Below are positions 7,268-10,803 of a stretch of DNA of 64,000 nucleotides, piece after piece. The DNA comes from Peptococcaceae bacterium. GTDB taxonomy: Bacteria; Bacillota; Peptococcia; Peptococcales; Peptococcaceae. A program made the translations under genes and the position numbers. The first letter of the stretch is position 1. Each line of letters opens with the position of its first letter. Below the pieces are notes generated by a model. The model did not search any database. It had not been told where the DNA came from and was given only the letters and a program-made list of their open reading frames with translations. Location of the stretch: assembly GCA_017399005.1 (NCBI GenBank), contig JAFQEO010000035.1:124001-188000 (forward strand), written 5' to 3'.

Positions 7268-7939
7268 ATGCGAGGTAATCTGGCAGCAAAAGCTGTTATG
7301 AAATATCTGGCAGGGCTGATACTTGTCGGTTTTCTTCTGTTTGTTCCGGCAGGAACGATTTTTTACTGGAATGGCTGGCTGTTTATCGGGCTTTTGTTTA
7401 TCCCTATGTTCTTTCTTGGGCTTGTACTGTTATGGAAAGCACCTGATTTACTGGAGAAACGTTTGAATACAAAAGAAAAAGAGAACGACCAGAAACAGGT
7501 GGTGGGTTTATCGGCGCTGATGTTTCTGGCCGGTTTTATACTGGCCGCTCTGGATTATCGATTTCAGTGGACACAGCTGCCCGGTTGGATTGTATTAATT
7601 GCCTCTGTAGTATTGCTGTTTTCTTACGGCATGTATGCCGAAGTAATGCGGGAGAATGCATATCTGTCCCGCACCGTGGAGATTCAGGAAAATCAGAAAG
7701 TTATCGACACAGGGCTTTACGGAATTGTGCGCCATCCCATGTACAGCAGCACCATTCTTTTATTTTTATCTATTCCGCTGGTTTTAGGCTCCGGCCTTGC
7801 CTTTCTGCTGTTTTTGTGTTATCCGGCATTGATTATTAAACGGATAAAAAATGAGGAAGAACTCCTGGAAGCAGGACTGACAGGATATCGCGAATACAAA
7901 CAAAAGGTAAAATATCGCCTGATACCGTTTGTGTGGTAA
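7268..7939 (+). CDS. isoprenylcysteine/phospholipid methyltransferase-family membrane protein
   Basis: The 223-residue membrane protein has about five hydrophobic segments. Its C-terminal half carries the signature of the ICMT/PEMT methyltransferase family: GLYGIVRHPMYSS at about residues 150-162, then an EEELLEAGLTGYREYKQKVKYRLIP tail. In this family these parts bind S-adenosylmethionine at the membrane face. The substrate in bacteria is usually unknown. The RBS GAAAGGGG lies ahead of ATG. It follows mnmA by 29 bp, possibly by read-through, and converges with the CDP-alcohol transferase. Confidence 0.85.
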   Translation: MRGNLAAKAVMKYLAGLILVGFLLFVPAGTIFYWNGWLFIGLLFIPMFFLGLVLLWKAPDLLEKRLNTKEKENDQKQVVGLSALMFLAGFILAALDYRFQWTQLPGWIVLIASVVLLFSYGMYAEVMRENAYLSRTVEIQENQKVIDTGLYGIVRHPMYSSTILLFLSIPLVLGSGLAFLLFLCYPALIIKRIKNEEELLEAGLTGYREYKQKVKYRLIPFVW

Positions 7940-7972
7940 AGCTATTTTCAGTTTGGGGTATTTAAAACTGGA

Positions 7973-8479
7973 CTACTTGCTTTCAAATCCTGTTGCAACA
8001 TAAAACGCTTCCTGAATTGCTGCGAATGTTGCTATGGAACATACTGCAATGGAACTGTATTTCAATTCAACAAAAGACAAGGTCAGGGGGAGAAGAAACA
8101 ATAACAATCCTGTAATCTTGTTCATTATAGTATGCAGGGATATTAACTGCTTTTTAGAAGCATATCCCCATATGATAGTACCGATTTTGATAATTGCGAT
8201 TACAACACCCCATATCCATAACCATTGAGGAAGATTAATTGCTGGCAATATTTTAATCAGAGACACTGTTACGAAAGCAAAGTCGGCTGCAGTATCGATT
8301 TTAGCCCCCGATTCACTAGTGCTGTTTGTCTTTCTTGCGATAGTACCATCTATCATGTCACTAAAACCGCAGAGGATATATACAATATAAAACTCTACTG
8401 AAAACGCAGGAAAGAACAATAACAAAACACTGCCCAGAATACGACAGCCTGTGACTATATTTGCAATATGTTTTATCAT
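7973..8479 (-). CDS. CDP-alcohol phosphatidyltransferase family protein
   Basis: The 168-residue membrane protein has the complete family motif D-x2-DG-x2-AR-x8-G-x3-D-x3-D at residues 41-66 (DMIDGTIAR...G...D...D). These enzymes transfer a phosphatidyl group from a CDP-lipid to an alcohol such as glycerol-3-phosphate, serine or inositol; the acceptor cannot be told here. I chose the ATG at 8479 because TAGGAGA lies seven bases before it. An upstream ATG at 8521 would add 14 polar residues without a good ribosome site. It stands alone, convergent with the methyltransferase gene. Confidence 0.88.
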   Translation of the reverse strand: MIKHIANIVTGCRILGSVLLLFFPAFSVEFYIVYILCGFSDMIDGTIARKTNSTSESGAKIDTAADFAFVTVSLIKILPAINLPQWLWIWGVVIAIIKIGTIIWGYASKKQLISLHTIMNKITGLLLFLLPLTLSFVELKYSSIAVCSIATFAAIQEAFYVATGFESK

Positions 8480-8598
8480 CGGTTCTCCTAAAATTCTGAA
8501 TTTTTTTGATCTGTTTGACAAATTCCAGTTTGTCTCACTCTTTTTATATTATAGCACACTTTTTTAACTGTATCGTTTTGAAAAGATTGAACAATACG

Positions 8599-8632
8599 AA
8601 AAAAGGCAGCAACGACTGGGTTGCTGCCTTTT
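8599..8632 (-). terminator. terminator for the small-protein operon
   Basis: AAAGGCAGCAAC and GTTGCTGCCTTT form a perfect 12-bp stem with a six-base loop. Read leftward it ends in TTTTTTCG. It lies 68 bp after the stop of the last small leftward gene. Confidence 0.88.
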
Positions 8633-8699
8633 GTGTTTGTGTTCAGTTATTTTTTTGTCATCACCGGCATACAGTGATAGAAACAGGCTGAGTTATTGC

Positions 8700-8933
8700 T
8701 TAGCAGCACCAGTTGTTGTTGCCACCGCCAAAACCGTTAATCAGATACAGGAAGATTACGAAAATGATAATCCACCAGATCCAGCTCCATGTGCCGTTGT
8801 TTGTGCCGTTCCAGCCCCATGCGCTATTGCAGCCGCAGGAGTTGCAGGAATTGCAGTTATTATAATTTGTGTACCCGCAGTTGTTGTCACATTCATTATA
8901 GCCGCAGCCACAGGAAGATACTTGTTCGTTCAT
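8700..8933 (-). CDS. Cys/Asn-rich one-helix membrane protein (77 aa)
   Basis: The start is the ATG at 8933, six bases after AAAGGAGG; a longer frame has no such site. The first 40 residues are Cys, Asn, Gly and Tyr (SSCGCGYNECDNNCGY..., then NSCNSCGCN). About residues 49-66 form a Trp-rich membrane helix (WSWIWWIIIFVIFLYLI), followed by a Gly/Asn tail ending WCC. It is the last gene of a four-gene leftward operon of tiny proteins. Cys/Asn-rich one-helix proteins are often spore-coat or envelope parts in spore formers; that is inference. Confidence 0.8.
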   Translation of the reverse strand: MNEQVSSCGCGYNECDNNCGYTNYNNCNSCNSCGCNSAWGWNGTNNGTWSWIWWIIIFVIFLYLINGFGGGNNNWCC

Positions 8934-8947
8934 AGGAAAAACCTCCT

Positions 8948-9052
8948 TTAGATGATAAAAAGCCATTTGATGAGCCACAGGATTAAAATCAGCATCAGCA
9001 TGGTTTCAAAGTAAAACCAGCTGGTGGCTCTAGCGGTGTGATAATACTCCAC
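8948..9052 (-). CDS. 34-aa single-helix membrane peptide
   Basis: This very short frame starts with GTG at 9052, nine bases after AAAGGA, and ends TAA at 8950-8948. The product is a dozen polar residues (MEYYHTARATSW) and one membrane helix with FETMLMLILILWLIKWLF. That helix closely matches the helix of the 67-aa protein two genes upstream (FFETLIMLIIIIWLLRWLF), which strongly supports it as a real gene rather than chance. It lies between the 74-aa and 77-aa genes, with the downstream RBS just after its stop. Function is unknown. Confidence 0.72.
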   Translation of the reverse strand: MEYYHTARATSWFYFETMLMLILILWLIKWLFII

Positions 9053-9084
9053 CGGAATCAATCCTTTCGTTTTTCCTTCCGGCA

Positions 9085-9309
9085 TCAGAAGCCGGGAGGT
9101 CGCCGCCGGTAAAGATTGTGCGGCGGGCGGGGAATCTGATTTTGCAGATGTCGGGAACTGGAGGCGAATTTCTCAATAAAGGGATAAAACTCCTCCAGCG
9201 CATCCAGCAGATGATCCACACTGTCTGTGAATCCCCGAATACTGGTTGTGGTACATTTCAGATGGTCAACCGTACGCATCAGCGGTTCAGAAGCTCGTTT
9301 TTCGCTCAT
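9085..9309 (-). CDS. 74-aa soluble hypothetical protein
   Basis: The ATG overlaps the stop of the preceding gene as TAATG, so it is translationally coupled. The product is predicted helical (RTVDHLKCTTTSIRGFTDSVDHLLDALEEFYPFIEKFA), then a basic Pro/Arg tail. There is no signal or membrane segment. Position and coupling argue that it is expressed with the Cys-rich membrane peptides. No family recognised. Confidence 0.68.
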   Translation of the reverse strand: MSEKRASEPLMRTVDHLKCTTTSIRGFTDSVDHLLDALEEFYPFIEKFASSSRHLQNQIPRPPHNLYRRRPPGF

Positions 9310-9512
9310 TAGCAGCCGTTATTGCATCCAAATACCGTATTTTGGCAGCCGAACATACCACAGCTAAACAGCCATCTTAATAACCAGATAATAATAATCA
9401 GCATAATCAGAGTTTCAAAAAAACTGCCGTTACATCCACCGCCAAAATTGCAATGTTCTTCGCAGCCATTCTGGCATTGATTGCCCCAGCCGAAGCCTAA
9501 GTTTTCAGACAT
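9309..9512 (-). CDS. Cys-rich one-helix membrane protein (67 aa)
   Basis: First gene of the leftward small-protein operon, with AAAGGAGG nine bases before ATG. Residues 1-30 are Gly/Asn/Cys-rich (NQCQNGCEEHCNFGGGCNG), residues 32-50 are a membrane helix with the FFETLIMLIIIIWLLRWLF motif, and the tail has more Cys (CGMFGCQ, FGCNNGC). Ten Cys in 67 residues suggest metal binding or disulfide cross-linking (inference). It is divergent from the gene at 9657 across a 144-bp promoter region. Confidence 0.8.
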   Translation of the reverse strand: MSENLGFGWGNQCQNGCEEHCNFGGGCNGSFFETLIMLIIIIWLLRWLFSCGMFGCQNTVFGCNNGC

Positions 9513-9656
9513 AGTCAGTTCCTCCTTTAGTATGTTTCAGTGTACGTTTTGCGTACCTGTTATCTGGAGTGTATTTCGCACTCACAGTACTATCTTATGT
9601 AAAGATCAGAAAAGCGTGACTGTTTTCTAAAATTTCAGGAAAGGAGGGATACCATT

Positions 9657-9869
9657 ATGGAGCAGATGCCATCGATGCCGGGCAGTATGGAGGAATTAAA
9701 AACACTGGTGCAGAATTTTGAGATGTTTCTTCCGGAGGAACAGCGCCGGGTTATTCACAAGACCATTGCGCAGATGGAAAGCACCGGCGGGATTCAGAGC
9801 GAGGAACAGGGCCGCGAGATTCTGGCCGGTTTAATGCAGTCTCTGGGATTGCCGGGAATGCAGAAATAA
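9657..9869 (+). CDS. 70-aa hypothetical protein
   Basis: AAAGGAGGG nine bases before ATG gives a strong start. The product begins MEQMPSMPGSMEEL, then an amphipathic helical stretch (TLVQNFEMFLPEEQRRVIHKTIAQME) and a Met/Gly-rich end (LAGLMQSLGLPGMQK). There is no membrane segment. It precedes spoIIM but is separated from it by hairpin element B. No family recognised. Confidence 0.75.
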   Translation: MEQMPSMPGSMEELKTLVQNFEMFLPEEQRRVIHKTIAQMESTGGIQSEEQGREILAGLMQSLGLPGMQK

Positions 9870-9885
9870 ATAAAACGTATTCAGT

Positions 9886-10085
9886 AAAGAATCAGGCAGG
9901 ACAGATGTGTTCCCTTTTCTGTTTAATGCTGGACATTGATTACCTCAAAGCAAAATGGATATTGCTATGCTTATGCTTGATTGTTTCGCTTTGTAAGACT
10001 TCGTCTTCCACGCCCGAAACAATCTTCGCAAATGTCCATCGTAAAGCAGAATTCGGTCCACACATTCTGTGCTGCCTGATTCTTT
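9886..10085 (-). repeat. fold-back intergenic element, subfamily I, copy B (inverted)
   Basis: This 200-bp palindrome lies between the 70-aa gene and spoIIM, in the opposite orientation to copies A and C. The outermost arms (AAAGAATCAGGCAG at the left, CTGCCTGATTCTTT at the right) pair perfectly and are unique to this locus. Inside are the shared boxes: the GGACATT/AATGTCC pair, the GATTGTTTC/GAAACAATC stem, the AGAC-GAA-GTCT tip, GAATTC-GATGGAC and GCGTG...CAAAGC. One frame stays open through it, but that frame is only the palindrome read as codons. Confidence 0.86.
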
Positions 10086-10141
10086 GCAGACTTTGTTGTC
10101 AAATTTTGAACGATTTTCAGCCTGAAAGGGGGACAAACTGG

Positions 10142-10675
10142 ATGAAAAAACTGCTTCTGTTTCAGAGTGTTCTGATGCTGAGCGGCATTATTTTCGGCAT
10201 GATTGCCTATCTGGTGTTATCGGACGAGCAGGTTTTGACTTTGCATCAGTATTTGACAGCGCAGATGCAGAATCTGACCTCGATTTCACAGCTTGAGGCC
10301 GGGAGCCGCATTTTAAAAAACAACGGGCTGGAGTTATTGCGTGTTTATCTGACCGGTATCTGCCTTCTGGGTCTGCCGATTCTGATTTTGCTGTTGTTTT
10401 TAAAAGGCTTCTCGTTTGGATTTGTGAGCTGTTTTCTGATTTCCCGCTCGCCGCTTTTAATCCTCACCCGTTTTCTGTATCTGCCGGTGTTTCTTCTGGC
10501 TGTGGCTATGGGGATCCGCTTTTCGTGGATTATGGTGCAGAACCGGATGAACAGCCCCGCTCGTCAGCTGGTGGAATATACCTTTCTGTTTGGACTGCTT
10601 CTGCTTCTCACGATTATCTGCAGTTATGCGGACGGGTTAAGCTGCAGTGCATATCTTAACGGTCTGGTTGGATAA
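10142..10675 (+). CDS. spoIIM: SpoIIM-like stage II sporulation membrane protein
   Basis: The 177-residue product has about five membrane segments. Its centre (LTGICLLGLPILILLLFLKGFSFGFVSCFLI) matches the core of SpoIIM, the scaffold of the DMP complex that degrades septal peptidoglycan during engulfment. The context agrees: spoIIM, xerD, deoB and a nucleoside phosphorylase follow each other as in Bacillus. The ATG at 10142 follows AAAGGGGG; an upstream frame extension runs through hairpin element B and is not credible. The sequence is diverged, so the name rests on topology, the central motif and gene order. Confidence 0.78.
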   Translation: MKKLLLFQSVLMLSGIIFGMIAYLVLSDEQVLTLHQYLTAQMQNLTSISQLEAGSRILKNNGLELLRVYLTGICLLGLPILILLLFLKGFSFGFVSCFLISRSPLLILTRFLYLPVFLLAVAMGIRFSWIMVQNRMNSPARQLVEYTFLFGLLLLLTIICSYADGLSCSAYLNGLVG

Positions 10676-10803
10676 GGAGTATTTACTGGACTTTTGATGA
10701 TAAAACCTTTACACTGATATTAAAACAGGACTTTTTTGAAACACAGCAGAAAATAGTAATAGAACAGAACAAAACAGAACGATAAGAGACAGGATGTGAC
10801 AGA

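Follow-up and report, generated by a model that had tools for sequence, protein, structure and literature searches.

A probable late mother-cell operon of four very small proteins

Four consecutive small ORFs, here named A, B, C and D, were found by reading-frame inspection on the minus strand between positions 9512 and 8700 of the window (the whole stretch of 64,000 nucleotides that was analysed). They probably constitute (probability about 0.68) a single sigma-K operon of the late mother cell, the predicted products of which would form a lineage-specific outer layer of the spore envelope. The timing, as read from the sequence, is well supported; the location in the spore envelope, be it coat, exosporium or outer forespore membrane, and the cross-linking through Cys we infer from the likeness to surface proteins rich in Cys (PMC6101409) and to yjcZ (PMC517825), as the cited passages of these papers describe them. 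All four ORFs had been noted in a first-pass annotation, which did not state their strand. The features of the region are as follows:

9591-9619, minus strand: sigma-K-type promoter; -35 TCACG, -10 ACATAAGATA, gap 14; spacing identical in 9/9 loci
9513-9585, minus strand: predicted 5' leader (start site inferred), whose 5' end carries a GAGTG/CACTC hairpin (9583-9567)
9528-9521, minus strand: ribosome site of gene A, SD AAAGGAGG, strong
9309-9512, minus strand: gene A, 67 aa; one hydrophobic helix (FFETLIMLIIIIWLLRWLF) between Gly/Cys-rich ends
9085-9309, minus strand: gene B, 74 aa, helical, soluble; motif RTVDHLKxTTTxxRGFADSVDHLLxALEEFxPFIEK
8948-9052, minus strand: gene C, 34 aa with a GTG start; one hydrophobic helix, a paralog of the helix of A
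8949-8942, minus strand: ribosome site of gene D, SD AAAGGAGG
8700-8933, minus strand: gene D, 77 aa; N-terminus rich in Cys, Asn and Gly, a hydrophobic helix, and WCC at the C-terminus
9657-9869, plus strand: gene E, 70 aa, adjacent and divergent; member of a helical family that is module-linked in other lineages
10142-10675, plus strand: spoIIM-like gene; PF01944 E = 6.5e-14, TIGR02831 below its cut-off

For every one of the genes A-D, either the ribosome site is good or the start is coupled. The translational coupling proposed at the outset is real between A and B, where the start of B lies within the stop of A (TAATG, at 9309), and this overlap is kept in 6/9 loci. C starts at the GTG at 9052, which is preceded by AAAGGA; an alternative reading of 45 aa from an upstream ATG, with a TGATG overlap with B, was discarded, as the orthologs do not conserve its N-terminal extension. 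The starts of the nine orthologs (ATG in six; GTG in G000, which is the genome containing the window, G010 and G005) confirm the 34-aa form, as first proposed, and its frame, the absence of which from relatives had been named as an argument against the gene, is kept in all nine operon-bearing genomes.

Protein features and family searches

The helices of A (FETLIMLIIIIWLLRWLF) and C (FETMLMLILILWLIKWLF) are identical in 12 of 18 residues when compared by eye and follow the common pattern FET-x2-MLIxIxWLxR/KWLF. The repeated helix motif of the first-pass annotation is thus borne out, with a spacing of FET-x2-MLI and not FET-x3-MLI as written there. Two of the proteins are very rich in Cys, as was also noted early on (8/67 residues in A and 10/77 in D), while C contains none. 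The predicted structure of B consists of two helices, at residues 8-20 and 24-58 (mean pLDDT 75, pTM 0.40).

The best 19-aa Kyte-Doolittle scores of A, C and D (2.27, 2.21 and 2.07, respectively) are hydrophobic enough for a membrane helix, and the helix shared by A and C has a conserved E and K/R inside. Both observations would suit a scenario in which the sigma-K-dependent products stay in membranes (that of the mother cell, or the outer one of the forespore) with a role in cortex, transport or germination, and no cross-linked layer is formed. Cys/Gly/Asn-rich flanks are, however, typical of spore surface proteins and not of transporters or signalling subunits, and no enzyme domain was matched by A-D in Pfam or NCBIfam; we consider this scenario unlikely, and favor an envelope layer.

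No Pfam or NCBIfam model matched A-D. More broadly, no credible family was found for A-E in Pfam, NCBIfam or PHROGs, and an Rfam search across 7900-10800 returned nothing at E 0.1. A profile search of the PDB with B yielded seven sequences with E-values no higher than 1, among which 8qae_A (E 9.8e-12) ranked first; this entry (sc-apCC-6-SLLA) was rejected as a homolog of B, and is regarded, judging from its name, as a composition match to a designed coiled coil. The protein families of the operon are unnamed in the libraries searched, while their kind, small late spore proteins, is already known.

It is very improbable that the tiny hydrophobic peptides are holin- or toxin-like and lyse the mother cell for spore release: the promoter is of the late mother-cell type and C consists of hardly anything beyond a single helix, in which an E and a K are conserved, but a pore peptide would not need the conserved Cys/Gly-rich ends of A and D, no toxin or holin family was matched in the three libraries and no phage family in PHROGs at E 0.1, and the multi-gene A-like arrays of f2 (see below) look structural.

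Conservation and genomic surroundings

The arrangement A-B-C-D, in this order, is kept in 9/13 genomes of the family (f1), including the 2.4 Mb genome that contains the window. In profile searches, B was found in 9/13 family genomes, and A (E < 1e-17) in exactly these nine; C was detected in 9/9 of these as a second A-like match, downstream of A, with A-derived profiles. Two weak matches to A were dropped, one in G002 (E 0.011), on the opposite strand of a 468-aa ORF, and one at G000:C14 (E 0.015), which has two stops inside. For each of the four genes pN was lower than pS in 36/36 genome pairs, with pooled pN/pS values over the nine operon loci of 0.16 for A and 0.32 for each of B, C and D; all four genes are under purifying selection. 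Beyond the family, A was found in 13/46 genomes of the class and in 6/398 of the phylum sample, all within the same order. The D-like profile matched only 2/398 genomes of the phylum sample, and the tiny proteins alone therefore cannot be traced far.

The spoIIM-like gene lies one gene away from the operon and divergent from it in all nine loci, in agreement with the closeness remarked upon earlier. In addition, xerD is syntenic in all eight other loci, and a profile of E, built from window and f2 sequences only, matches E in all eight other f1 loci. This flanking synteny demonstrates orthology, and by itself is no evidence of function. The spore role, originally guessed from the proximity of spoIIM only, is now supported by the sigma-K-type promoter, by co-loss with sporulation genes and by linked genes elsewhere, as described below.

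On the other side of the operon, D is separated from the 6165-7238 gene by a CDP-alcohol phosphatidyltransferase (PF01066) and an ORF that looks, by its sequence, like a membrane methyltransferase (positions 7268-8521 of the window). In two relatives (L034 and L038) the homolog of the 6165-7238 gene directly follows D, which points to an insertion or a loss specific to some lineages.

A sigma-K-type promoter upstream of gene A

A motif of the form AC-N16-CATAnnnT(A/G) is located 73-105 nt before A in 9/9 loci; it was first spotted by eye on aligning these nine upstream regions. The published sigma-K consensus is KCACM / GCATANNNTA (PMC3416734), with a second form given in PMC9562818 and a -35/-10 gap of 14-16 (PMC517825). 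The -35 sequences match KCACM at 5/5 positions in five loci and at 4/5 in the other four, and the -10 sequences match GCATANNNTA at 8-9 of 10 positions, with a gap of 14, in 9/9 loci. Dinucleotide shuffles of the nine upstream regions contained the motif in a mean of 0.083 regions of nine and in 2 at most; as the motif had been found in these same regions, this shuffle is not an independent test, and the sister family f2 was examined. There, 15 A-like genes were taken out of 19 A-like matches, with two starts from profile hits; the motif was present within 130 nt of nine of these 15 (shuffle mean 0.17) and of 2/5 D-like genes (shuffle mean 0.02). In a comparison set of ORFs of at least 150 aa in the loci, the motif preceded 6 of 93, and four of these six are genes of the linked clusters: gene F, two large B-domain proteins and a subtilase-like ORF. 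On the strand of E, the interval between A and E lacks the motif in all nine loci. Across the whole window it shows no enrichment (2 matches vs 1.58 expected), so that the promoter evidence consists of position and conservation, not of rarity.

The hairpin at the 5' end of the leader is the minimum-energy form in only 6/9 leaders, and for this reason no functional role is claimed for it; it possibly stabilises the mRNA. Its stem sequences differ between genomes (for example in G006, G004 and G001).

Co-occurrence with sporulation genes

Among the 13 family genomes, matches over the cut-off were found for spo0A in 11, for spoIVA in 9 and for sigK in 9; the genome of the window is one of those with an over-cut-off match to the sigK model TIGR02846. 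No such sigK match was obtained in two operon-bearing genomes, G006 (76% complete) and G011 (68%). Two genomes, G002 (98% complete) and G012 (87%), have neither spo0A, spoIVA and sigK nor the operon, which may represent one loss event, and in G007 and G009 (79-80% complete) spo0A is present and the operon is absent. In the 21 genomes of the order, A occurs in 12/15 spoIVA-positive vs 1/6 spoIVA-negative genomes (Fisher p 0.014, an optimistic value because the genomes are related). The single spoIVA-negative genome with A is G011, in which spo0A is present; the spoIVA-positive genomes without A include G015 (f2, 96% complete) and G018 (f3). Across the 46 genomes of the class spoIVA was found in 34 vs 13 for A, which indicates that the operon is not part of core sporulation and is a lineage-specific addition.

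A vegetative envelope operon that lies near spoIIM by chance, under a sigma-A or sigma-E promoter, can be set aside as highly improbable: closeness to spoIIM is by itself plain synteny and the -10 box is common to sigma-E and sigma-K, yet the -35, which alone favours sigma-K, fits sigma-E at 5/8 or less at best in every locus vs 4-5/5 for sigma-K, and the operon is absent from both spo0A-negative genomes.

Related genes in other families

In family f2 there are arrays of A-like and D-like genes, together with B-like genes and E. In two f2 loci a further gene, F, adjoins E (L063 4529-5131 and L061 4142-4504); it encodes one hydrophobic helix and VLYSRSLGK repeats, has a sigma-K-type motif upstream in both loci, and gave no credible family match. 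A B-like protein of 144 aa at L064 4143-4577 has two tandem B domains, and a subtilase-like ORF (L062 7357-7713) is found near B and A genes.

The B profile matched in 11/398 genomes. Among the matches are larger proteins from G018 (f3) and from three genomes of the distant family f50 (G083, G159 and G413); one weak match was obtained in G204. In G018 and in the three f50 genomes, B-type genes lie less than 10 kb from tiny one-helix proteins and from an E homolog, the latter matched by the E profile (L109, L110, L111 and L114; E 1.4e-13 to 1.6e-11 at Z = 10,000). The f3 locus (L109 4487-6853) contains six tiny one-helix ORFs of 34-38 aa with strong ribosome sites, placed between and beside the B-domain genes. 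Each of the three f50 loci also has a subtilase-looking protein adjoining its B-domain gene (L110 4128-5279, L111 4083-5231 and L114 1512-2741), and the one in L110 was checked (PF00082, E 1.1e-62). In f50, the tiny gene directly upstream of E is preceded by a sigma-K-type motif in 3/3 cases, a count that is weaker evidence since these genes were chosen after inspecting the loci.

The clustering in f50 may be a sign of a wider spore-envelope module that has no name yet. We tentatively suggest, while giving it less than even odds, that A-E may be parts of a sigma-K-type module of this kind in f1, f2 and f3, which make up one order, and in the distant f50, and that it would build an outer spore layer so far undescribed in all these lineages. 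The module, on the same tentative footing, might comprise E, adaptors with a B domain and tiny proteins of one helix each, joined in some cases by a subtilase.

A possible course of assembly and its significance

In the favoured reading, RNA polymerase with sigma-K would transcribe A-D as a single operon late in the mother cell, and the products would come to lie on the outside of the developing spore. The single hydrophobic helix of each of A, C and D would then be inserted in, or packed against, the outer forespore membrane, which derives from the mother cell, or the coat surface, and disulfides could cross-link the ends of A and D, rich in Cys, Gly and Asn, while the mother cell dies. B, its translation coupled to that of A, may act as a soluble helical adaptor that bridges to other parts, and the end product would be a lineage-specific outer layer of the spore envelope.

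Spore coat genes differ strongly between lineages, and further low-complexity coat proteins, yet unidentified, are expected in other firmicutes (PMC3533761). For gut Peptococcaceae the operon provides a concrete set of candidates, with a promoter that indicates their time of use, and the E and B profiles locate the module even where the tiny membrane proteins escape detection because of their shortness.

Comparison with known spore proteins

Bacillus proteins of the YjcZ/SscA type are tiny and easily overlooked by annotation, as are A-D. YjcZ is Gly-rich with one hydrophobic helix; it is not known to have Cys-rich ends or a FET..WLLRWLF helix. The YjcZ model is presumably contained in the family library searched, and YjcZ/SscA-like family models were matched neither by A-D at E up to 1 nor by the D-like forms of f2 at E up to 10. 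In the literature, sscA is listed as a spore assembly and germination protein (PMC5743806). A-D would work like YjcZ/SscA and are not members of that family.

A second likeness is to the Cys-rich proteins of the crust and exosporium, CotY/CotZ, ExsY and the C. difficile proteins CdeC and CdeM, which share with A and D a high Cys content. Disulfide cross-linking has been proposed for CdeC (9% Cys) and CdeM (8.7% Cys), and disulfide-bearing self-assembly is described for CotY/CotZ (PMC6101409). At 405 and 161 aa (PMC6101409), CdeC and CdeM are far larger than A and D, and no Pfam or NCBIfam profile matched A or D. In contrast to these Cys-rich surface proteins, A and D additionally carry a membrane-type helix.
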